The notes under the pieces are model-generated. The model searched no databases. It saw nothing but the letters and a program-made list of their open reading frames with translations, and was not told the DNA's origin. From an uncultured Myxococcales bacterium (GTDB lineage: Bacteria; Myxococcota_A; Polyangia; Palsa-1104; JAEUJZ01): 46,212 bases of DNA. Where the stretch lies: NCBI GenBank assembly GCA_937868485.1, contig CALMML010000391.1, forward strand, positions 1-46,212. The letters are read 5' to 3'. Positions 1,927-40,190 of this stretch are shown here, piece after piece. Numbering within the stretch: the first letter of the stretch is position 1; every line of letters begins with the position of its first letter. Both the position numbers and the translations under genes were made by a program.

Positions 1927-2916
1927 TTATTTGCAGCAGGAATACTTGGCGTGATGGAACTGGGCCATGGCTCCGCATGGATCGTAGGCCACAAACGTCG
2001 TCAGCTTCAGTCCGCGCGCCACGCAGGTCCGCTCGGCTTCCGTCTTGAGCGCCACTTCGGTCTGGCACGTCATGGGGTTTCCAATCACCGCACCGACGCA
2101 GGTGGTCGGCGGCGGGGTCGGCGGCATCGATGCGTCGCAGCACTCGGCTTCCGCTGCCACAAAGCCACCGACGGCGCAGGGCTTGTCGAGCTTCAGATCG
2201 TGCAGCGTCTGCATCTTCGTCGAGCAGAACGTCGTCGCTTCGCGCTTCCAGACATCGGGCAGACGGCAGATGCCCATGCTCGGGAGCGGATTCCAGGTGC
2301 AGCGACCGACGGGTGGCGGCGGAGGCGGCGTGGTGGGTCCGCAGCACTCGACGCGAACGTCGAAGTGGCCGGTAGCGCCGGACGCGCGACAGACGGTGCC
2401 GTAGGTCAGGTTCTTGACCGTGGCGCTCTTGGCTTTGCAGACCGCTTCAGCGCGGGTCTTCCAGGTCGAGTCGTCGACGCAAGTTCCCATCGGATCTTTG
2501 AGCGACTCGGTAAAGCACATGCCGGGAGGAGGAGGCGGCGGAGGAGGAGGCGGCGGCGTGATCGCATCGCAGCAGGTGTAGGTTGCTTCGCGCCAGCTGG
2601 CCATTCCACAGGACGTGGCGAGCATGACGTTCTTGAGCGCGAGCCCCTTGGCCTTACAGGAGGCTTCGCCGTAGCTGCGCCAGGTCTTTTCATCCTTGCA
2701 GCTGGTGGCGCCGCCTTCTTTGATCGTGACGCAGCGCGGCGTAACGTCGGGCGACAGCGCGTTGACATCTTCGCCGGTGGTGACTTCTCCGGCGGCTTGA
2801 TCGACCGGGGCTCCGTCACAGGCTCCGAGGAGCGCTGCTACGGCCACGACCGAAAACAGCCAAGGACGCTTGCGTGAGGTGTTGTTTCGACCAAGCCCGT
2901 TTTGTCCGTTTTGCAT
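1927..2916 (-). CDS. Lipoprotein built of four six-cysteine repeats joined by polyproline linkers
   Basis: I place the start at the ATG at 2916 (GGAG 8 nt upstream) rather than the longer open frame to 2994, because it gives a clean lipoprotein signal: basic N-terminus, hydrophobic core, lipobox LLGAC with C33. The mature part is four copies of one module with invariant spacing C-x(10-11)-C-x(13)-C-x(15)-C-x(11-14)-CC, at residues 62-116, 134-192, 206-260 and 273-328. Linkers are Pro-rich; that after module 1 has 11 consecutive prolines. Modules diverge strongly apart from the cysteines and a conserved K/R-x-E-A segment before the third Cys, so this is an old domain duplication. Six cysteines per module suggest three disulfides in the periplasm or at the surface. 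I do not recognise the family and assign no function. Confidence 0.85.
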   Translation of the reverse strand: MQNGQNGLGRNNTSRKRPWLFSVVAVAALLGACDGAPVDQAAGEVTTGEDVNALSPDVTPRCVTIKEGGATSCKDEKTWRSYGEASCKAKGLALKNVMLATSCGMASWREATYTCCDAITPPPPPPPPPPPGMCFTESLKDPMGTCVDDSTWKTRAEAVCKAKSATVKNLTYGTVCRASGATGHFDVRVECCGPTTPPPPPPVGRCTWNPLPSMGICRLPDVWKREATTFCSTKMQTLHDLKLDKPCAVGGFVAAEAECCDASMPPTPPPTTCVGAVIGNPMTCQTEVALKTEAERTCVARGLKLTTFVAYDPCGAMAQFHHAKYSCCK

Positions 2917-3103: not shown

Positions 3104-3433
3104 CTAGTTTTTGGTGCACTCAACCGGGCCGGACACCTTGCGCACCACACACTTGGCTGGGTAGTACGCGTAGTGAAAGGCTTTTTCGTAGCAGCAGGCC
3201 TTCCAGACCGTCTCTTGCTGATTTTGGACGAAAGTCTGGATGGCGAAAGGCTCACAGCGCTTGCCGATGCTGGCAAAGTCGAGGAGCGCTTGGTTTTTGA
3301 CTTGGGCATCGATCCGCTCGCGAGCGCCGCAGTCAGCCGGGTTGGCCAGCGACTCAGGCTGAAGGTCTGACTCGGGATAGCAGCTCGATAGCGCAGCGAT
3401 GAGCACAGCAGTTAGGACGCGGACAGGGTTCAC
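3104..3433 (-). CDS. Small cysteine-rich lipoprotein, unknown function
   Basis: A 109-residue protein starting at GTG 3433, preceded by GGGGAGG at 5-nt spacing, which decides the start. The N-terminus is a lipoprotein signal with lipobox ALSSC (C18). The mature part has further cysteines including a CC pair, plus an aromatic FHYAYYP stretch. The spacing does not match the six-Cys module of the next gene, though both share a CC pair and a periplasmic lipid-anchored location. It lies 32 bp downstream of the copper ATPase gene, so co-transcription with it is likely; a role in metal handling would be inference only. Confidence 0.75.
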   Translation of the reverse strand: MNPVRVLTAVLIAALSSCYPESDLQPESLANPADCGARERIDAQVKNQALLDFASIGKRCEPFAIQTFVQNQQETVWKACCYEKAFHYAYYPAKCVVRKVSGPVECTKN

Positions 3434-3465: not shown

Positions 3466-5790
3466 TTATGTATCTAAAGTCACGTTTTTAAGACGAAGTG
3501 CATTGGAAATCACAGACACCGAGCTGAGGCTCATCGCGGCGCTGGCCAGCATCGGGCTCAGCAGCAGACCGATGAGCGGATACAGCGCGCCCGCCGCAAT
3601 CGGCACCGCGAGCAGGTTGTAGCCGAACGCAAACCACAGGTTTTGGCGGATGTTGCGACGGATCGCTTTGGACAGCGTGATCGCACGCAGCAGCGCCGAC
3701 AGATCGCCGTGCAGTAGCGTCACGGCTGCGCTCTTGATGGCAACATCGGTGCCGCTGCCCATCGCAATGCCCACATCGGCAGACGCGAGCGCTTCTGCAT
3801 CATTGATTCCATCACCGACCATCGCAATCACGGACGACGTTCCACGCAGTCGCCGGATAAGCGCTGCTTTGTCGTGGGGTCGCAGCGCTGCGTGAATTTC
3901 CGCAATGCCGAGCTGATGCGCAATTGCGTGCGCGGTGTGCTTGTTGTCTCCCGTCGCCAGCACCAGCTTCAGCCCGAGCTTGTGGAGCTTGTCGGCGGTC
4001 TGCTTCACTCCGTCGCGCAGCTGATCATGGACGGCGATCGCTCCGAGCCACTGTCCCGCTTGCGCCACTTGAATCACCGTCTGACCTTCGTGCTGAAGCA
4101 GGATCAGTGCGCCGCGCTTGTCGGCGGGAAGCTGGATGCCTTCTTCTTCCAGCAGCGTCAGCGTTCCGACGAGCACTTTGCCTTCGCTCGTTTGACCACG
4201 CAGTCCGCGACCGGGCAGCGCTTCGACGTCGCTCGCTGCGACATAGGACAGCTTCTTTTCTTTCGCTGCGCCAACCACCGCGATGCTAAGCGGATGTTCG
4301 CTGCCCTGTTCGACGCTGGCTGCCGCTGACAGGAGCGCGTCTTCGCTGACTCCATCACTCGGAACCAGCGCGGCCACACTTGGTTTTCCGACGGTCAGCG
4401 TTCCGGTCTTATCGAGCACAATCGTCTGAACCACCGCCAGTCGTTCCAGCGCTTCTGCGTCGCGAAACAGCACACCGGCTTGGGCGCCACGACCTGAGCC
4501 GACCAGGATCGACATCGGCGTCGCCAGCCCGAGCGCACACGGACACGCGACGATCAAGACCGACACCGCCGACACCACCGCGAGCGGCAGCTTGGCCAGA
4601 CCGCCGATCAGCAGCCAAGTCGCGAGCGTGATCAGCGAAACGATCACCACCGTCGGAACAAACACAGCGGAAGCGCGATCGACGAGCCGCTCGATCGGTG
4701 CGCGACTGCGCTGGGCCCGACGAACCGCGTCGACGATCTGACCGACCATGGTATCGGCTCCGACTTCGGTGAGACGGATGATGAGCGCGCCGTTGCCGTT
4801 GACGGAGCCTCCGACGATGCGCTCGCCGACGGTCTTGGCCACAGGCATCGACTCGCCGGTGAGCAGCGATTCATCAAGCTGGCTGCTTCCTTCGAGGATG
4901 ATTCCATCGGCAGCGACGCGCTGACCGGGCAACACCCGCACGCGATGACCGGGAAACAGCTCACTGACGGGAACGTCGCGCTCTTCGCCGGATGGAAAGA
5001 CCCGTCGCGCCATCGCCGGAAGCAGCGTCAGCAGTGCGCGCAGCGCTTCGCCGGTCTTGTGACGAGCCCGCAGCTCCAGCACCTGACCGACCAGCACCAG
5101 CGTCGAGATCGTCGCCGCCGACTCAAAATACACAGCGGGCGGATGTCCGACGAGCCCCGACGCGAAAAACTGTCCGAGCCGCACCAGGCTATAGCCGTAC
5201 GCCGTCGCCACTCCGAGCGTAATCAGCGAAAACATGTTGAGTCGCCAGTCGACAAACGAGCGATAGCCTCTTCGCCAAAGCTCCTGACACGCGAACAGCA
5301 CCAGCGTCGTCAGCACTGCTTCGCACAGCACAATCCACGTCGAGCCGTGATGACCGAAGAGCATGCCGCCCATCTCCAGCACGAACACGGGCACCGTCGC
5401 CAAAAGCGACAGCTTGAGCCGCCGGGTCATCTGCGCAAGCTCACCGTCGGGACTGCCTTGCGGAGCGTCGAGCACAAGCTGATCGGGCTCCAGCGCCATG
5501 CCGCACTTGGGACAAGGCACGGGCTTTTCTTCGCTGACCTCGGGACACATCGGACAGATCCAGCGCGCAGCGACGGGAGGCTTAGCGGGCTTTTGCGCGT
5601 ACAGATAGCGCTCAGGGTCGGCGGAAAACTTGTCGCGACAGCGCGGATTGCAAAAAAAGTAGGTCGTGCCCAAAAACTCGTGCGAACCGCCCTTGGGTGC
5701 GCGTCGGTCGACCTTCATCTTGCAGATGGGATCGATGGCGATGTCGGTCTCGCTCTGCGGAGTCAGCGGCGAAGGGGTCATGCCTCGCAT
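3466..5790 (-). CDS. copA: Copper-type P1B heavy-metal transporting ATPase with N-terminal YHS and HMBD metal sites
   Basis: A 774-residue inner-membrane pump predicted to export Cu(I) (or a related soft metal) using ATP. Residues 21-64 form a YHS domain (C23, C47, C51) and residues 77-102 a heavy-metal-binding segment with paired Cys sites (CPMC and CPKC); the usual CxxC HMA domains are absent. Next come the transmembrane helices, the actuator TGES loop, the CPC transport motif in VACPCALGLATP, the phosphorylation motif DKTGTLT and the hinge GDGINDAEALA. CPC and the DKTGT Asp are intact, so it should be active. Two ATGs, 5790 and 5781, are possible starts; neither has a strong ribosome site. 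It lies 33 bp after the DUF4331 lipoprotein gene. Metal specificity is from family knowledge, not shown here. Confidence 0.93.
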   Translation of the reverse strand: MRGMTPSPLTPQSETDIAIDPICKMKVDRRAPKGGSHEFLGTTYFFCNPRCRDKFSADPERYLYAQKPAKPPVAARWICPMCPEVSEEKPVPCPKCGMALEPDQLVLDAPQGSPDGELAQMTRRLKLSLLATVPVFVLEMGGMLFGHHGSTWIVLCEAVLTTLVLFACQELWRRGYRSFVDWRLNMFSLITLGVATAYGYSLVRLGQFFASGLVGHPPAVYFESAATISTLVLVGQVLELRARHKTGEALRALLTLLPAMARRVFPSGEERDVPVSELFPGHRVRVLPGQRVAADGIILEGSSQLDESLLTGESMPVAKTVGERIVGGSVNGNGALIIRLTEVGADTMVGQIVDAVRRAQRSRAPIERLVDRASAVFVPTVVIVSLITLATWLLIGGLAKLPLAVVSAVSVLIVACPCALGLATPMSILVGSGRGAQAGVLFRDAEALERLAVVQTIVLDKTGTLTVGKPSVAALVPSDGVSEDALLSAAASVEQGSEHPLSIAVVGAAKEKKLSYVAASDVEALPGRGLRGQTSEGKVLVGTLTLLEEEGIQLPADKRGALILLQHEGQTVIQVAQAGQWLGAIAVHDQLRDGVKQTADKLHKLGLKLVLATGDNKHTAHAIAHQLGIAEIHAALRPHDKAALIRRLRGTSSVIAMVGDGINDAEALASADVGIAMGSGTDVAIKSAAVTLLHGDLSALLRAITLSKAIRRNIRQNLWFAFGYNLLAVPIAAGALYPLIGLLLSPMLASAAMSLSSVSVISNALRLKNVTLDT

Positions 5791-8293: not shown

Positions 8294-10381
8294 CTACAGG
8301 CCGAACTTGGCCAGCTTTTTGTGCAGTCCTTCGCGCGTGATGCCGAGCGTCTCTGCCGTGCGCGTCTTGTTGCCGCCGTGGTCCTTCAGCGCCTGAATCA
8401 GCAGGAAGCGCTCGACCTCTTCCATCATGTCTTTGAGCTGTCCTTTTTGCGGCGCGATGCGATCCATCAGCCCTTCGGCCTGACGCATGCGCGGCGCGAG
8501 CAGATCCGGCGTGATGAACGACTCGGGATCGACCTGAATCACCAGCCGATGCACTTCGTTTTCCAGCTCACGGACATTTCCTGGCCAGTTGTACGCGATG
8601 AGCTGCGCCAGCGCTTCCGAGGTAAAGCCCGGCACCGGCTTCTTCATCTCGTTGCTGTATTTGTGCAAAAAGTGCTCCGAGAGCAGCCCAATGTCTTCCC
8701 GTCGCTCACGCAGCGCCGGCAGCCGAATCGGATACACCTTCAGGCGATAGTACAGATCCTGACGGAAGCGACCTTCGGCGACTTCCTTTTCCAGCGAGCG
8801 GTTGGTCGCGCACAAGATCCGCACATCGACCTTGCGTGGCTGGGTCGCACCGACGGCGCGCACTTCGCCTTCTTGCAGCACGCGCAGCAGCTTGGCTTGT
8901 AGCCCGAGTGACATCTCGCCAATTTCGTCGAGAAACAGGGTTCCACCGTCGGCGACTTCAAACAGACCCTTTTTGTCGGAGTCCGCGCCGGTAAACGCGC
9001 CTTTTTTGTGACCGAACAGCTCGGATTCCAGCAGCGTATCGGGCACGGCGGCACAGTTTTGCGCGACGAACAGCTTGTCGCGACGGCTTGACTGCGCGTG
9101 GATGAGCGACGCGATCAGCTCTTTGCCGGTTCCCGTTTCGCCTTCGATGCAGACGGTGGCGCGGGTGTCGGTGACTTTTTGAACCTGCTTTAAGACCTCG
9201 CGAAAGGCCGGGCTGTGACCGATGGGCTCGACGGTGCGACGCTTTTCTTCGCGGCTCTTGAGGTAGCGGTTTTCGGTGCGAAGCTGCTCTTCGGCCAGTC
9301 GCAAGCGCTGATGCAGTCGCGCGTTTTCGATGGCCAGCGTCGCTTGTCCGGCGAGAACCAGCAGCAGCTCCAGGTCGCGCTCTCGGAACATCGCCGCTGA
9401 GCTGCGGTTGTCACACTGAATCACGCCACGAATCTCGTCGCCATCCCACAGCGGAACGCCGATGATCGACTGAATGCGAGCACCCATGATCGACGCGGCT
9501 CCGGCGAGATCTTGCGGCGCATTGGCACACAGCACGGCGGCACGCTCTGACAGCACGCGGCGAATGACGGCACGCGACGCACGAATCGGAGACGCAGGCT
9601 TTCCGTCGGTCGCTTTCGGATCGGGCTTCGGTTCACCTCTGCGGGCCGAGCCAAACACCGTCGCCATCTTCGCTTCGCTACCGTCGGTTAGCTCAATCGC
9701 GATGTGCGTCCCGAGCGGCAGCAGCTCGAACACCGACTCTGCGATGCCTTCAAACACCGCTTGCAGATCGAGCCCTCGTCGACCGAGCCGCTTCGACAGC
9801 GCGAGCAGTCCCGACGCCAGCACCGGATCTCGCTCGACCTTGCCCGCGACTTCTTCGGCTTCCGTGAGCGGACGACGAGCCAAGATGCGATGCTCGGGCT
9901 CTTGTGCTTCGGCGGGCTCGGGCTGCGCGCTCTTTCCCGTCACCGGCGCTTGCGCACTGCGGCCAAGCTGCATCGCTGGAACCGTCGGAGAGCTACTTCC
10001 AGGCACCGGCGAAAGTGGCTCCAGCTGACTGGACGACGACGACAGCGCACAGCCGATCATCACCGGCTCGACGGGATCTCCAAGTAGCAGCTTGTCTCCG
10101 TCGCAGAGCACCGATTCAAAGCCGGTCGTTCCATCGACGTAGACCAGCGATCCGTCTCGTCGCTGAATTCGTGAACCGTTGGTCGATTTCAGATCTTTGA
10201 AGATGTACTTGTCGTCTTCGCGAAAGATCTGGGCATGCTCGCTCGACAGGTGTGCGTCGGGCAGCACGATGTGGTTATGCGGAGCGCGTCCGACGGTAAA
10301 GCTCGGCTCGCGGACCAAGAATCGCTGTCCACGCTGGCCACCCGACAGAACCTCGAGCGCGATCGTCATTGCAGAAGCCAT
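8294..10381 (-). CDS. FHA-GAF-sigma54 AAA+ transcriptional activator
   Basis: A 695-residue enhancer-binding protein that opens sigma54 RNA polymerase complexes. The N-terminus (about 5-105) is a forkhead-associated domain, with TVGRA at 28-32 and SSEH, a phospho-threonine reader in place of a receiver domain. A GAF-like sensor (about 215-355) and a coiled linker follow. The AAA+ domain shows Walker A GETGTGKE (414-421), GAFTGA (461-466, intact sigma54 contact loop) and Walker [11 protein letters not shown] (480-489); a Fis-type helix-turn-helix ([16 protein letters not shown]) ends it. The open frame extends to 10492, but the FHA homology supports ATG 10381, or ATG 10369, which shares an ATGA with the stop of the upstream lipoprotein gene. 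Translational coupling with that lipoprotein is likely. Input is presumably a Ser/Thr kinase elsewhere. Confidence 0.92.
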
Positions 10382-11022
10382 GTCAACTCGGTTTGCCCCA
10401 GGGGACCGGCGACGCGCAAGCTGATCTTGTGGGTTGAGGGTTGCGGAAACGGTTTTCCGTCGCTGGCATTCACCGGAAAGTGAACGCTCCACAGCTTCGT
10501 AAAGGCGTCGGTTGGCTCTCCGAGCAGGGTCTGTTCGACCGCTTGGCGCGTCGTCAGCGTATCGATTCGGTCGGCTTGCACTTCGCGTCCTTGATCATCG
10601 AGCAGCGACAGTCGCCACTTGCCCGCCGATAGCCGCAGCTCATTCCACGTCGGTGCGTGCGTCTTGGTCAGCACAAACAGCGACAGCCCGTTTTGGGTCT
10701 GCTCGGCTTGCTCTTTTTCGATCCGGGCGCGTTCCCACGGATCGGCGACGGAATACGTCTTCAAATATTGGTCCACGTACGCTCGCTGAAACGATCGAGA
10801 GCGCAGCGTCGCAAACACCACCAGCTGGGTATCAAACTCGGTGTTCGACAAGACGCGACCGTGACGGCTCCAGCGATCGCGTGACTTTTCATAGCTGGTT
10901 CCCGTCGGCTCGGTCTCGCTCTGAAGGCTCAAGACCGGCGGAGCGCAGCCAGACATCGAGCCCAGCGCAATCGCCAGGCCCAAGACTCGCGCGTGTCGCA
11001 AACAAACCCGAGCAAGCGGCAT
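10366..11022 (-). CDS. Lipoprotein of unknown function coupled to the sigma54 activator
   Basis: A 218-residue product from ATG 11022 (a GTG at 11025 is adjacent). The signal ends SMSGC, a clear lipobox. The mature protein is mixed alpha/beta with no motif I recognise; it has a charged segment (WERARIEKEQAEQ) and a beta-rich C-terminus ending [14 protein letters not shown]. Its stop overlaps the start region of the FHA activator. This coupling suggests the lipoprotein could be part of the signal sensed, or a target, but that is inference. Similar lipoprotein plus FHA-activator pairs would be the test. Confidence 0.75.
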   Translation of the reverse strand: MPLARVCLRHARVLGLAIALGSMSGCAPPVLSLQSETEPTGTSYEKSRDRWSRHGRVLSNTEFDTQLVVFATLRSRSFQRAYVDQYLKTYSVADPWERARIEKEQAEQTQNGLSLFVLTKTHAPTWNELRLSAGKWRLSLLDDQGREVQADRIDTLTTRQAVEQTLLGEPTDAFTKLWSVHFPVNASDGKPFPQPSTHKISLRVAGPLGQTELTWLLQ

Positions 11023-34083: not shown

Positions 34084-34175
34084 GAATCGTAGCTTTGGTT
34101 CCCGCCGCAGACAGCGCAGTGCTCGACCGGCTGTGGCGTGTTTGTTTATGCTGATCCCTTGTCGAAGGAGAAACT

Positions 34176-37100
34176 GTGAGTACGGAACCGACCGACAAGC
34201 CTGCATCGGACGTGCCTTCTTCTGAAGCCTCAGCAACGGGAACTTCCGCGCCTGCGGAGCCTGGTGCCCCGGCTGATTCGTCGGACCTTCGACCTCCTGG
34301 CGTGCTGCGGCGCATCGGTCGTGGTCTGTTCGGACAGCTTCGCTGGCAGCCGCCTCCGTGGCTGGAGGCGATTGGACGCGGGCTGTCGCGGGGCGCTGGA
34401 TGGCTTTCTGCCAACAAGCCAGCGACGGCGGTGCTTCTGTTCGCGGTGATGCTGATCGGCGGCCTGGCCTACGTTGGTCAGCGCTGGCAGGACAAGCAGC
34501 CGAAGCCGATCGAGATGTCGGTGCGCGTCGATCCTCCCGAGGCGATGCGACTGGAAAAGAGCGCGAAGCCAAGCACGATGCGGGTGCTGTTTGGCGGCTC
34601 GGCGGCGCCGATTGCGCTGGTGAAAAAGCCGGTGACGATGGGCGTGGAGCTGTCGCCGCCGCTGCAAGGAAGCTGGCGCTGGGACTCGGATCGGATCCTG
34701 ACGTTTGTGCCTAAGGAAGACTGGCCCGTCGGTGAGCGCTTCACGATTCGGCTACAAAAGCGCGGGCTGCTCGCGGACGACGTGCGACTGACGGACTACA
34801 CGCTGAACTTCGAGAGCGCTCCGCTGACGGCGCACTTTCGCGAGCAGTCGTTTTATCAAGACCCCGAAAATCCAGCGAACAAGAAGGTTGTGGCGACGCT
34901 GGCGTTTAGTCATCCGATCGACAAAGAGGAGCTGGAAAAGCGGCTGGAAGTCGAGCTGGTGACGAAAAAAGACGGGGTCTCGCAGAAGACGCCGTATCGC
35001 TTTAGCACGACGTACGACGGGTTTTCAGCGACGGTGTATATCCACTCGGATCCGGTGCAGATTCCCGACCATGACTCGATGATGGTGGTGCGGGTGCAAA
35101 AGGGTGTGAAGGCGGCGCGGGGTGGGGCTCCGCTCAAAGAGCCGATCAGCACGTCGGTGACGATTCCGGGTCTGTACGACTTTTTGCGAGTGACCGGCGC
35201 GAGCTTGCAGCTCGTGAACAACGCGCAGATGGAACCGGAGCAAGTGCTGGTGATCTCGACGAACACTGGCGTGACAGAGGCAGAGATCAAGAAGTCGCTG
35301 TCGGTGGTGGTGCTTCCGAAGCGGCCTTTGGGGGATACGAGCGGGAGCAAAGAGCAGTACAGCTTTGCGCTGAGCGAGATCAGCAAAGAAGTGCTGGCCG
35401 CGTCGCGTCCGGTGCGGATCGAGCAGATTCCGAACGAAAAAGAGTTTTCGGAGACGCAGTCGTTCCGTTACGTCGCAGAAGTTGGCGCGGTGCTGTATGT
35501 GACGGTGAAAAATGGGCTTCAGTCGGCGGGCGGCTACGTACTCGGTCGTCCGTCGGAGCACATCCTGACGGTGCCGGAGTTCCCCAAAGAGCTGCGGGTG
35601 ATGCAGACGGGCGCGATCTTGGCGATGTCGGGTGAGCGGAAGGTGCCGCTGTTTGGGCGCGACATTGAGTCGATTCGCGTCGAGATTGGGCGACTGCTGC
35701 CGAATCAGCTACAGCACATGATCTCGCAGAACACGGGATCGTTTCAGAACCCGGACTTTTCAAACTATCGCTTCACACCGGACAACCTGACCGAGCGCTT
35801 CACCGACGAGATGGAGATGCCAAACCTCGGGCACGGCAAGGCGCAGTACGCGGCGGTGAACCTGGGCAAGTACTTCGATCGCAAGGGCGAAAGTCGGCTC
35901 GGGCTGTTCTTTTTGAAGGTCGAGAGCTGGGATCCGAAGAAGAAAGAATCGACGGGACAGAGCGATCAGCGGCTGATTTTGCTGACGGACCTCGGCGTGC
36001 TGGTCAAGGACAACGTCGATCACTCGCACGATGTGTTTGTGCAGTCGCTGAAAAACGGCGATCCGATCAAGGGCGCGACCGTCGAGGTGATTGGCAAAAA
36101 CGGCGTGGCGATTCAGACCGCGACGACGGATGCGGATGGACACGCGAGCTTTCCGAAGCTTAGCGACTTTGTGCGAGAGCAAGCGCCGCTGGCGTATGTG
36201 GTGAGCAAAGGTGGGGATCTGTCGTTTTTGCCGTATGGACGCAGCGATCGATACCTCGACGTTTCGCGCTTCCCGATTGAAGGCATTCACGACGCGGAAA
36301 AGCCGCAGGGACTGCAAGCGTATCTGTTTTCGGATCGCGGCATGTATCGGCCCGGCGACGAGATTCGCATCGGTTTGATCGTAAAGAGCCAAGACTGGAA
36401 GCAGAAGCTTGCGGGCGTGCCGCTGGAGCTGTCGATCGAAGATGCGCGCGGCGTGACGGTGCGACGGGAAAAGCTTCGGCTGTCCGACGCAGGCTTTGAG
36501 GAAATTCGCCATCAGACGCTGGAAGCTTCGGCGACGGGAACGTGGAATGTGAACGTTCACATCGTCAAAGACGGTCAGGTCGGCGGGCTGCTCGGGTCGG
36601 TGGCGGTGCGGGTGCAAGAGTTTCTACCGGATCGTCTGAAGATCTCGACGCGGCTGAGCAAAGAGTCGCTGGAAGGCTGGGTGTCTCCCGACGGACTGAA
36701 GGCGCATGTGCAGCTTCAGAACCTGTTTGGAACACCGGCGGAAAGTCGTCGGGTCAAGGCGACGCTGATGCTGTCTCCGACGCTGCCAAGCTTTAGCAAG
36801 TTCCGTGAGTATCAGTTCTTCGATCCGGTTCAAGCGAAAGAGGCGCTGACGGAAAACCTCGAAGAAGGGGAGACGAGCGAAAAGGGCGAAGCAGAGTTTG
36901 AGCTGCCGCTGGCGCGGTTTTCGAGTGCGACGTATCGGCTGCGCTTTGTTGCGCAAGGGTTTGAGGCCGAGGGCGGTCGCTCGGTGGCGGCTGAGACGCA
37001 GGTGACGGTGTCGCCGCTGGCGTATCTGCTTGGCTTTAAGCCCGACGGAGACTTGGGATATCTGAGCAAGTCGAGCCGTCGCAGCGTTCACTTGGTTTCA

Positions 37101-40100
37101 GTCGGTCCGCATGGCACATCGGTCGCGCAGTCCGGCATTCGCGCGATGCTGTTTGAGCGACGCTACCTGTCGGTGCTGGTGAAGCAGGACAACGGAACGT
37201 ACAAGTATGAGTCGGTCAAAAAAGAGCTGGTCGTCGAAGACAAGAAGCTGTCGATTCCGTCGGGAGGCATGACGTATCCGCTGCCGACGCAGCAGCCGGG
37301 CGACTTCTTCTTGGTGTTTAAAAACGACAAAGATCAGGTGCTCAATCGGATTGAATTTTCCGTCGCTGGCGAAGGAAACCTGACGCGCTCTTTGGAAAAG
37401 AACGCAGAGCTTGGGCTGAAGCTGAAAAATCCCGACGTGTCGGCGGGCGAAGAGCTGGAGATGCAGATCAAGGCTCCGTATACCGGCGCGGGTCTTATCA
37501 CCATCGAGCGCGACCGGGTGCGAGCCTACAAGTGGTTTCACGCCAAGCAGAACGCGTCGATTCAGAAGATCACGGTGCCCGACGACATGGAAGGCAACGG
37601 CTATGTCTCGGTGTCGTTTATTCGCGGAATCGACTCGCAGGATGTGTTTATGGCGCCGCTCACGTATGGCGTTGCGCCGTTTAGCATCTCGAAGGAAAAG
37701 CGGACGGCAAAGATCTCGGTGACGACGCCGGACTTGGTGAAGCCAGGGGAGCCGTTCAAGCTGCGCTATCACACGGATCGTCCGACGAAGATCGTGCTGT
37801 GGGCGGTCGATGAAGGCATCTTGCAAGTGGCGCGGTATCAGACGCCGGATCCGCTGGCGTACTTTTTCCAAAAGCGCGCGCTGGAAGTGAAGACGGCGCA
37901 GATCCTGGATCTGATCCTGCCGGAGTTTTCGCGACTGCTGCGAGCAGCGCCGGGCGGCGACGGAGAAGGCTCGGGTCTAAAGAACCTGAATCCGTTCAAG
38001 CGTCGTCGCGACAAGCCGGTGGCGTACTGGTCGGGGATCATCGACGCGGACACCGAGGACAAAGAGGTTACGTATCAGGTGCCCGATTCGTTTAACGGAA
38101 CGCTGCGGGTGATGGCGGTTGCGGTGGCTCCTGATGCCGTCGGTGTGTGGAGCAAAAAAGCGCTGGTTCGCGGTGACTTTGTACTCAGTCCAAATGTGCC
38201 AACGGTGGTGGCACCGGGTGATGAGTTTGAAGTGTCCGTCGGTGTGGCGAACAGCGTAGTGGGCTCGGGGGCCAATGCGAAGGTGACGGTCCAGCTTCAG
38301 ACGAGCAAGCACCTGCAAGTGACTTCGGACGGCGCGCAGACGCTAAAGATTGGTGAGATGCGCGAGTCGGTGGCGCGCTTCAAGCTGAAGGCGACGCAGG
38401 TGCTCGGGTCGGGCTCGATGACGTTTGTGGCGTCGCTCGGCGGGAAGTCGGGCAAGTACACGGTGGATCTGTCGGTGCGTCCGGCGGCGCCGCTGTATAC
38501 GACGACGCAGGTGGGACACTTGCCGCCGGGTGGTGGACGGGCGCAAGTGGCGGTGCCGAGAGAGCTGTTCGCGGAGTATCGGATCCTGTCGGCGGGCATT
38601 GCGCCGCTGCCGCTCGGGCTGTCGCAAGGTCTTTCGCAGTATCTGGAAAAGTTCCCGCACGGCTGTACCGAGCAGCAAGTGAGCCAAGCGGTGCCGGCGC
38701 TCGTCGGTCGGGCGCGTCCAGAGTTTGGGATCAAGTCCGAAGCGGCAGAGCTGAGCTTCCAGAACATCATCGCGACGCTGCGATCTCGTCAGAACGACGA
38801 CGGAGGCTTCGGGCTGTGGGCGAATCCGAACCAAGTGCATGACTTCGCGTCGGTGTATGCAACGCACTTCTTGCTGGAAGCGAAAGAGCGTGGGCTGGCG
38901 GTTCCGCCGGAGCTGCTCAAGAAGAGCCTGGAGTTTTTGAACCAGATTGTGTCGCGGGAAACCAGCTCGCTGCCCGAGGAGCGGGTGAGAGCCTACGCGG
39001 TGTATCTGCTGACGCGGTCGGGTGTGGTGACGACGCAAGCGGCGATGAGCGTGCGCAAGCGGCTCGAAGGTCAGTACAAAAACTGGGGCGAAGATCTGGC
39101 GGGAATCTATCTGGCCGCGACGCTCCAGCTGCTCAAGCAGACGCGGGATGCGCAGCGGATCATTGCCAACGTGAGCCTTGGGCAGGTCAAGGACAGCGCG
39201 ACGGACTATCAGAGCTACTACGATCCGCTGATTCGCGACGCACAGGCGCTGTACATCATGGCGCGGCACTTCCCGGATCGGGTAAAGAGCCTGGGGCCCG
39301 ATACGCTGCTGTCGCTGGTGGATGCGATCAGCAAAGGTCGCTATAACACGCTGTCGTCGGCGTACCTGATCTTGGCGTTTGATGCGTATGCGCAGCTTGC
39401 CCAGGATCAGACGGACGTGAGCCAGCTGTCGATCATCGAGGTTCCGTCGTCGGGAGCGCAGAAGACGCTGAACCTACCGACGGGACTTTTGCCGCAGGTG
39501 AGCTTTTCGCCGGACGCGCGCAAGCTGCTGATCTCGTCGAGCAGTCCGCTGCGGACGTTCTATCAGGTGACGCAGTCGGGCTACGATCAGCGGGTATCGA
39601 CGGATGTGGTCAAGCAGAAGCTGGAAGTGCTGCGAGAGATCGTCGGTGCCGACGGAAAGCCGATCAAAGAGCTGAAGCTTGGCGACGAAGCGACCGTTCA
39701 CATCAAGCTGCGCAGCGTGGTGAAGGGCGCTCAGCTCTACAACCTGGCGATTGTGGACTTGCTGCCGGGTGGCTTCGAGGTGGTGGTGAATCCGCCGCAG
39801 GAATCGAGCGACAGCGACGAAGAATCGAGCGATGGCGAGGAAAGCTACAGCCACGACAGCGACGAAGAAAGCAGCCATGAAGGCGATGGCGAAAGCGATG
39901 GCGAAGGCAGCGGAGAGCGCGAGAGTCGCTCAGCGCGCAAGACGTCCGCAGCCCCGGCGCAGCTTCCGATTGTGAAGGAAGGCTCGACGTGGACGCCGGA
40001 CTATGGCGATGTGCGAGAAGATCGCGTGGTGCTGTACGGCAGCGTTGGGAACGAAGTGGTGGAGTTTGTGTATGCGATCCGTGCAACCAGCGCGGGCAGC

Positions 40101-40190
40101 TTCGCGGTTCCGCCACTGCAAGGGGAAAGCATGTACGACCGCAGTGTGCTGGCTCGGTCTGCGGGCGGGAAAATACGCGTGGTGAAGTAA
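34176..40190 (+). CDS. Bacterial alpha-2-macroglobulin with intact thioester, anchored by one N-terminal helix
   Basis: A 2,004-residue periplasmic protease-trap-like protein. GTG 34176 has AAGGAG just upstream. Residues 1-80 are cytoplasmic (Pro/Ser-rich then basic); a membrane helix at about 82-100 (ATAVLLFAVMLIGGLAYV) anchors it, unlike the lipoprotein anchor of E. coli YfhM. A long chain of beta MG domains follows. The thioester motif GCTEQ is intact with C1497, and DGGFGLW belongs to the helical thioester domain after it. Residues about 1874-1925 are a Ser/Asp/Glu-rich insert within the C-terminal part. In other bacteria such proteins trap proteases that enter the periplasm, usually beside penicillin-binding protein 1C; no PBP1C gene is here. 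Confidence 0.92.
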   Translation: MSTEPTDKPASDVPSSEASATGTSAPAEPGAPADSSDLRPPGVLRRIGRGLFGQLRWQPPPWLEAIGRGLSRGAGWLSANKPATAVLLFAVMLIGGLAYVGQRWQDKQPKPIEMSVRVDPPEAMRLEKSAKPSTMRVLFGGSAAPIALVKKPVTMGVELSPPLQGSWRWDSDRILTFVPKEDWPVGERFTIRLQKRGLLADDVRLTDYTLNFESAPLTAHFREQSFYQDPENPANKKVVATLAFSHPIDKEELEKRLEVELVTKKDGVSQKTPYRFSTTYDGFSATVYIHSDPVQIPDHDSMMVVRVQKGVKAARGGAPLKEPISTSVTIPGLYDFLRVTGASLQLVNNAQMEPEQVLVISTNTGVTEAEIKKSLSVVVLPKRPLGDTSGSKEQYSFALSEISKEVLAASRPVRIEQIPNEKEFSETQSFRYVAEVGAVLYVTVKNGLQSAGGYVLGRPSEHILTVPEFPKELRVMQTGAILAMSGERKVPLFGRDIESIRVEIGRLLPNQLQHMISQNTGSFQNPDFSNYRFTPDNLTERFTDEMEMPNLGHGKAQYAAVNLGKYFDRKGESRLGLFFLKVESWDPKKKESTGQSDQRLILLTDLGVLVKDNVDHSHDVFVQSLKNGDPIKGATVEVIGKNGVAIQTATTDADGHASFPKLSDFVREQAPLAYVVSKGGDLSFLPYGRSDRYLDVSRFPIEGIHDAEKPQGLQAYLFSDRGMYRPGDEIRIGLIVKSQDWKQKLAGVPLELSIEDARGVTVRREKLRLSDAGFEEIRHQTLEASATGTWNVNVHIVKDGQVGGLLGSVAVRVQEFLPDRLKISTRLSKESLEGWVSPDGLKAHVQLQNLFGTPAESRRVKATLMLSPTLPSFSKFREYQFFDPVQAKEALTENLEEGETSEKGEAEFELPLARFSSATYRLRFVAQGFEAEGGRSVAAETQVTVSPLAYLLGFKPDGDLGYLSKSSRRSVHLVSVGPHGTSVAQSGIRAMLFERRYLSVLVKQDNGTYKYESVKKELVVEDKKLSIPSGGMTYPLPTQQPGDFFLVFKNDKDQVLNRIEFSVAGEGNLTRSLEKNAELGLKLKNPDVSAGEELEMQIKAPYTGAGLITIERDRVRAYKWFHAKQNASIQKITVPDDMEGNGYVSVSFIRGIDSQDVFMAPLTYGVAPFSISKEKRTAKISVTTPDLVKPGEPFKLRYHTDRPTKIVLWAVDEGILQVARYQTPDPLAYFFQKRALEVKTAQILDLILPEFSRLLRAAPGGDGEGSGLKNLNPFKRRRDKPVAYWSGIIDADTEDKEVTYQVPDSFNGTLRVMAVAVAPDAVGVWSKKALVRGDFVLSPNVPTVVAPGDEFEVSVGVANSVVGSGANAKVTVQLQTSKHLQVTSDGAQTLKIGEMRESVARFKLKATQVLGSGSMTFVASLGGKSGKYTVDLSVRPAAPLYTTTQVGHLPPGGGRAQVAVPRELFAEYRILSAGIAPLPLGLSQGLSQYLEKFPHGCTEQQVSQAVPALVGRARPEFGIKSEAAELSFQNIIATLRSRQNDDGGFGLWANPNQVHDFASVYATHFLLEAKERGLAVPPELLKKSLEFLNQIVSRETSSLPEERVRAYAVYLLTRSGVVTTQAAMSVRKRLEGQYKNWGEDLAGIYLAATLQLLKQTRDAQRIIANVSLGQVKDSATDYQSYYDPLIRDAQALYIMARHFPDRVKSLGPDTLLSLVDAISKGRYNTLSSAYLILAFDAYAQLAQDQTDVSQLSIIEVPSSGAQKTLNLPTGLLPQVSFSPDARKLLISSSSPLRTFYQVTQSGYDQRVSTDVVKQKLEVLREIVGADGKPIKELKLGDEATVHIKLRSVVKGAQLYNLAIVDLLPGGFEVVVNPPQESSDSDEESSDGEESYSHDSDEESSHEGDGESDGEGSGERESRSARKTSAAPAQLPIVKEGSTWTPDYGDVREDRVVLYGSVGNEVVEFVYAIRATSAGSFAVPPLQGESMYDRSVLARSAGGKIRVVK

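Follow-up and report, generated by a model that had tools for sequence, protein, structure and literature searches.

What is the cysteine-rich module that occurs four times in a lipoprotein of an uncultured Myxococcales bacterium, and what does the protein do? The window analysed here is a whole 46,212-nucleotide stretch (contig CALMML010000391.1), and the gene lies on its minus strand (Table 1). An earlier note, made from the sequence alone, regarded the module as apparently undescribed and as belonging to no named domain. Profile searching instead gave a significant match to a known cysteine-rich family: with Pfam hmmscan, the whole protein matches PF12924 (APP_Cu_bd), the copper-binding domain (CuBD) of the amyloid precursor protein (APP), over four stretches with 64.5 bits (E = 1.3e-17). 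As each of the modules matches PF12924, the domain has been described before; the unusual point is its occurrence in bacteria, in arrays and without the copper site, which makes it a new form of a known domain family.

Architecture of the lipoprotein

The reading frame runs from an ATG at 2916 to a stop codon ending at 1927, with a Shine-Dalgarno-like GGAG read directly from the sequence 5' of the ATG; the plus strand over 1927-2916 holds a shadow frame only. The translation starts with a type II signal peptide carrying a lipobox, KRPWLFSVVAVAALLGAC|D (also given as VAALLGAC|D), and a short acidic spacer lies between the lipobox and the first module. Judging from these features the protein is probably exported and lipidated, in keeping with its earlier description as a lipoprotein. 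Under the Escherichia coli sorting rule, aspartate at position +2 would mean the inner membrane. In Myxococcus xanthus, lysine at +2 marks inner-membrane lipoproteins and alanine at +7 those of the matrix (PMC3222651); the mature N-terminus of the window protein, CDGAPVD, has neither. Surface exposure is possible, and as likely as a periplasmic location.

The pattern C-x(10-11)-C-x13-C-x15-C-x(11-14)-CC is found at residues 62-116, 134-192, 206-260 and 273-328, with every cysteine exactly where the earlier note had placed it and with the central spacings x13 and x15 constant in all four modules. When the protein was shuffled, two of 200,000 sequences contained one match to the pattern and none contained two, so that the arrangement is far beyond chance. 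Of 93 modules in the wider bacterial family, 91 keep x13 and 80 keep x15. The description of beads on a polyproline string also held, the linkers containing up to 11 consecutive prolines. The neighbourhood of the gene is bacterial and syntenic with other Myxococcota MAGs, which rules out animal contamination.

Table 1. Features of the array gene, its neighbours and the permuted repeats (positions refer to the window unless a locus is named).
Feature	Position	Strand	Evidence or remark
Four-module lipoprotein gene (P0001, 329 aa)	1927..2916	-	PF12924 E = 1.3e-17, four stretches
Putative signal peptide, residues 1-32	2821..2916	-	Charged N-region and hydrophobic core in translation
Putative lipobox LGAC, residues 30-33, lipidated Cys33, Asp at +2	2818..2829	-	Translation
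Module 1, Cys62-Cys116	2569..2733	-	PF12924 29.0 bits; AlphaFold2 model and Foldseek
Polyproline linker 1	2518..2568	-	
Module 2, Cys134-Cys192	2341..2517	-	PF12924 18.0 bits, under cut-off; profile A5 72.3 bits (module 2 itself included in A5)
Polyproline linker 2	2302..2340	-	
Module 3, Cys206-Cys260	2137..2301	-	PF12924 28.5 bits; phmmer to APP 1owt E = 0.005
Proline-rich linker 3	2101..2136	-	
Module 4, Cys273-Cys328, C-terminal	1933..2100	-	PF12924 26.9 bits; identities by position
Small Cys-containing lipoprotein upstream of array gene, no CuBD	3104..3433	-	No Pfam match
Heavy-metal P-type ATPase, YHS and HMBD domains, copper exporter type	3466..5790	-	Pfam
Permuted repeat loci (Patescibacteria)	L046:5033-5830; L095; L045:4806-7652		Element order strand 2, strand 3, strand 1, helix

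Relationship to the APP copper-binding domain

The CuBD consists of one helix packed on a three-stranded sheet and has three disulfides. Its cysteine frame in human APP, C133-x10-C144-x13-C158-x15-C174-x11-C186C187, is also that of the window modules. Taken singly, modules 1, 3 and 4 score above the curated PF12924 cut-off of 26.4 bits and module 2 scores below it (Table 1). The class to which module 2 belongs occurs twice in the relatives L042 and L044. Since shared spacing of six cysteines may by itself produce a misleading profile match, the search was also run in reverse, using a profile (A5) made from 34 bacterial modules only, with no animal sequences. Against 177,635 distinct PDB sequences, A5 returned eleven APP-family chains with E values of 4.2e-9 to 3.6e-4, and the next match had an E value of 3. 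The CuBD of APP scores 39.7 bits against the bacterial profile, compared with a mean of 3.0 bits for shuffles with the cysteines fixed (0/5000 as high), and APLP2 scores 30.6 bits (2/5000 as high).

A template-free AlphaFold2 model of module 1 (pLDDT 88) has the compact, disulfide-type fold that the earlier note had anticipated. Its elements follow the order strand-helix-strand-strand, with the helix on a three-stranded sheet as in PF12924. In a Foldseek search of the PDB the first 22 matches of this model all belong to APP, APLP2 or Caenorhabditis elegans APL-1; the best is PDB entry 2fkl (TM 0.86, r.m.s.d. 1.0 Å), and the first match outside the APP family has an E value of 0.38. The pairing of the cysteines as in APP, which includes the 144-174 disulfide (PMC5281630), is expected in the bacterial modules from the superposition.

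An unrelated bacterial six-cysteine module might share the APP spacing by chance, and even the best bacterial-APP pairs are identical at only 13-17 of about 55 residues, six of these being cysteines. We nevertheless regard such convergence as exceedingly improbable: there is a strong non-cysteine signal at Trp150, Ala154, Leu165 and the aromatic positions 179 and 184, in the structure search only the APP family matches, and the sequence search succeeds in both directions. For a domain of 57 residues, computation could hardly establish homology and predicted fold more securely, and on these grounds the window modules are homologous to the CuBD, which forms the second half of E1 in APP. No report of a bacterial APP CuBD was found in the open-access literature; Pfam/InterPro may already list bacterial members automatically.

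Absence of the copper ligands

The Cu(II) ligands of APP are His147, His151 and Tyr168, and a KD of ~10 nM has been reported for Cu(II) binding by its CuBD (PMC5281630). In the alignment the equivalents of all three are replaced in all four window modules. Among 91 non-redundant bacterial modules, His147 is present in 0%, His151 in 3% and Tyr168 in 5%, no module has two of the three, and position 151 is lysine in 61%. The positions that are kept are the six cysteines, Trp150 (63%), Ala154 (80%), Leu165 (63%) and the aromatic residues 179 and 184; these look structural. Copper binding through the APP site most likely plays no part in the working of the window protein, as far as can be judged from sequence. 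Automatic annotation of bacterial genes as 'copper-binding of amyloid precursor' will probably lead to their being mistaken for genes of copper proteins.

Neighbourhood and module turnover among relatives

The gene order ATPase, small lipoprotein, CuBD array is kept in L042, which belongs to the same genus, and in L044, and is absent in L039, L040, L041 and L043. As it is limited to L042 and L044, the association is local and constitutes weak evidence for copper handling. The ATPase and the small lipoprotein are 81-92% identical between the window genome, L042 and L044 (the small lipoprotein 92% in L042 and 88% in L044). The small lipoprotein has seven cysteines including a CC pair; it was considered as a degenerate CuBD and rejected, its A5 score being reached by 56 of 2000 shuffles with the cysteines fixed. 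A copper-resistance operon was likewise considered and is unsupported by the ligand table and by synteny.

The number of CuBD modules changes among the relatives, from four to five and five and then to 6-8 in more distant ones. Module 1 is 91, 89, 73 and 55% identical to the first module of L042, L044, L041 and L043, respectively; in L042 and L044 the identity by position is 96 and 73% for module 3 and 75 and 61% for module 4. Modules 1, 3 and 4 stay position-specific, which suggests that selection acts module by module and speaks against a homogenised filler.

Elsewhere in the window, the regulator nearest to the CuBD gene is a sigma-54 activator (8297-10594). A bacterial alpha-2-macroglobulin of 2010 residues, with MG2, MG3, bait-region and A2M domains, is encoded on the plus strand at 34155-40187, with a HEAT-repeat protein before it and an OmpA/TSP3 protein after it.

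Distribution and a circularly permuted form

The expectation that the module would occur in other Myxococcota proved correct. The bacterial profile finds the CuBD in 24 of 379 genomes of this phylum, across many families and in very diverged forms; the public PF12924 model alone finds 20. Arrays on lipoproteins contain from one to eight or more modules, and in L061 a CuBD module is joined to Laminin_G_3 and HYR domains. A short lipoprotein with one or two CuBD modules is encoded directly upstream of the long array at L041:8125-8583 and L043:2496-3137, and its apparent orthologue lies on another contig of the window genome (G000:C366:20584-21084). L030 (G124:C6) contains a 2349-residue frame in which CuBD modules are followed by many VCCKT..GYQ.VP..QCP cysteine repeats. 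A search of plasmids, phages and viral contigs as carriers of the CuBD gave no match.

Two Patescibacteria genomes, one with L046 and L095 and the other with L045, carry CuBD-like repeats in a permuted order (Table 1). When the L046 and L095 repeats were rotated back, their scores against the bacterial profile rose from 16.5, 19.8 and 21.0 bits to 26.7, 30.6 and 33.8 bits as full-length matches, and the rotated L046 pair reached 37.6 and 42.3 bits when the cysteines of the new termini were trimmed; shuffles with the cysteines fixed all remained below 21 bits. AlphaFold2 gave a strand-strand-strand-helix order for a permuted repeat; of the five models two were poor, and the best had a pLDDT of 85.5. 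The chain is continuous where the canonical Cys133-Cys187 disulfide would sit, and a new cysteine pair is found at the new termini. We infer the circular permutation from the rotation of the sequences together with the predicted element order, and the disulfide pairing in these repeats from their sequence. The permuted model gave no APP match in a Foldseek search, as is to be expected because Foldseek keeps chain order. The Patescibacteria form offers a natural test of which disulfides the CuBD fold needs.

Proposed function and alternatives

On balance we favour the view that the window protein serves in the envelope or at the surface as a scaffold for multivalent binding, stapled by disulfides, and is not a copper protein. 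It would be exported by Sec, lipidated and oxidized in the periplasm; the polyproline rods would then keep four rigid, disulfide-stapled beads off the membrane, each bead could be a protein- or polymer-binding unit, and the whole would serve as a multivalent binding scaffold or receptor of the cell envelope or surface. The position-wise identity (55-91% for the first module and 61-75% for the last in the nearest relatives), the variation in module number from four to eight and the architectures that combine the CuBD with Laminin_G_3 and HYR domains are all consistent with this. The CuBD of animals binds the FN2 domain of contactin through a surface separate from the copper ligands (PMC8808184), and copper-free partner binding is therefore an established ability of the fold.

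The Pfam name suggests a different role, that of a copper buffer in which the lipoprotein would catch copper exported by the adjacent P-type ATPase. The gene does lie downstream of, and on the same strand as, this YHS-HMBD ATPase, in an order kept in two relatives, and the CuBD of APP binds Cu(II) with the affinity given above; the adjacency in the window genus could mean metal handling through another site. This role is nevertheless weakened because the APP copper ligands are missing, in all four window modules and in essentially all of the 91 bacterial modules, and the 91-module table has no other conserved histidine or methionine position. The window gene and the small lipoprotein gene lie nearly 190 bases apart, and in the four relatives that lack the gene order the ATPase is not beside the array. 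We judge a copper buffer to be quite unlikely.

The modules might instead read an envelope signal and relay it to an ECF sigma factor or another regulator. In L053 (2692-5285) an ECF sigma gene overlaps by four bases the gene for a membrane protein whose CuBD modules form its C-terminal part behind a single hydrophobic segment, and a CuBD lipoprotein gene follows; the same two CuBD genes occur in L014 and L024, which come from two related large genomes. Such a membrane protein is present in three large genomes of the same class. In family f51 (L055) a seven-module gene and an ECF sigma gene are oriented divergently. The L053 gene set is a candidate signalling unit, and for these ECF-linked cousins of the window protein a sensor role is a serious alternative. 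For the window protein itself it seems unlikely, as its gene has no ECF gene nearby, the nearest regulator being the sigma-54 activator, and most of the other copies examined have no ECF neighbour either. The array could also be a passive spacer or wall-like filler, merely a rigid, protease-resistant stalk; the polyproline rods, the variable module number and the lack of a known ligand would suit such a part, but modules 1, 3 and 4 are position-specific (up to 96% identity) and not homogenised, and we consider it very unlikely. A binding scaffold is the reading that we retain.

Origin of the domain in APP

Most work on APP concerns animals, and the CuBD, as its name says, is treated there as a copper domain. 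In a tree of 80 modules the two animal sequences fall within the bacterial diversity, beside one Myxococcota module (support 98/90); this tree is unrooted, is based on 57 columns and has long branches. APP homologues are present in all animals examined except ctenophores (PMC11405698). Tentatively, and with more doubt than conviction, we propose that the CuBD of APP derives from a bacterial envelope module without a copper site, which reached early animals by gene transfer and gained copper binding later, within animals. That four copies in a soil-type bacterium are without the copper-gripping residues suggests that the domain did not begin as a copper binder. The bacterial family bears on where the domain of APP came from: a diverse branch without copper ligands provides a missing outgroup for this domain and argues that the fold is primarily a stable binding module stapled by disulfides and secondarily a site for copper. 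In the simple bacterial proteins the ancestral function is open to testing.

Comparison with known proteins

Galaxin_repeat (PF24748) and DUF1036 (PF06282) show a weak resemblance over part of a module (E = 0.28 and 0.22, respectively), with scores well under their own cut-offs and no fold match. The anti-sigma factors of ECF sigma factors share gene order and an apparent N-in/C-out topology with the L053 membrane protein, which differs from them in having no anti-sigma domain recognised by Pfam; the window protein differs further in being a lipoprotein with no ECF neighbour. The closest known proteins are APP, APLP2 and APL-1, whose E1 CuBD (PF12924; PDB entries 2fkl, 2fjz, 1owt and 2m05) has the same fold and, in human APP, the same cysteine spacing. 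In the window protein PF12924 is the sole Pfam family above its cut-off, and hmmscan found no growth-factor-like domain, E2, A-beta or C-terminal YENPTY; the profile of the E1 growth-factor-like domain (PF02177, APP_N) matched in 0 of 113 Myxococcota genomes, in a search run without a positive control. Compared with the animal proteins, the window protein is without the copper ligands, the preceding growth-factor-like domain, E2, the transmembrane segment and A-beta, and carries its modules in tandem arrays on a bacterial lipoprotein. By sequence and predicted fold it is a member of the domain family but stands outside the APP protein family.
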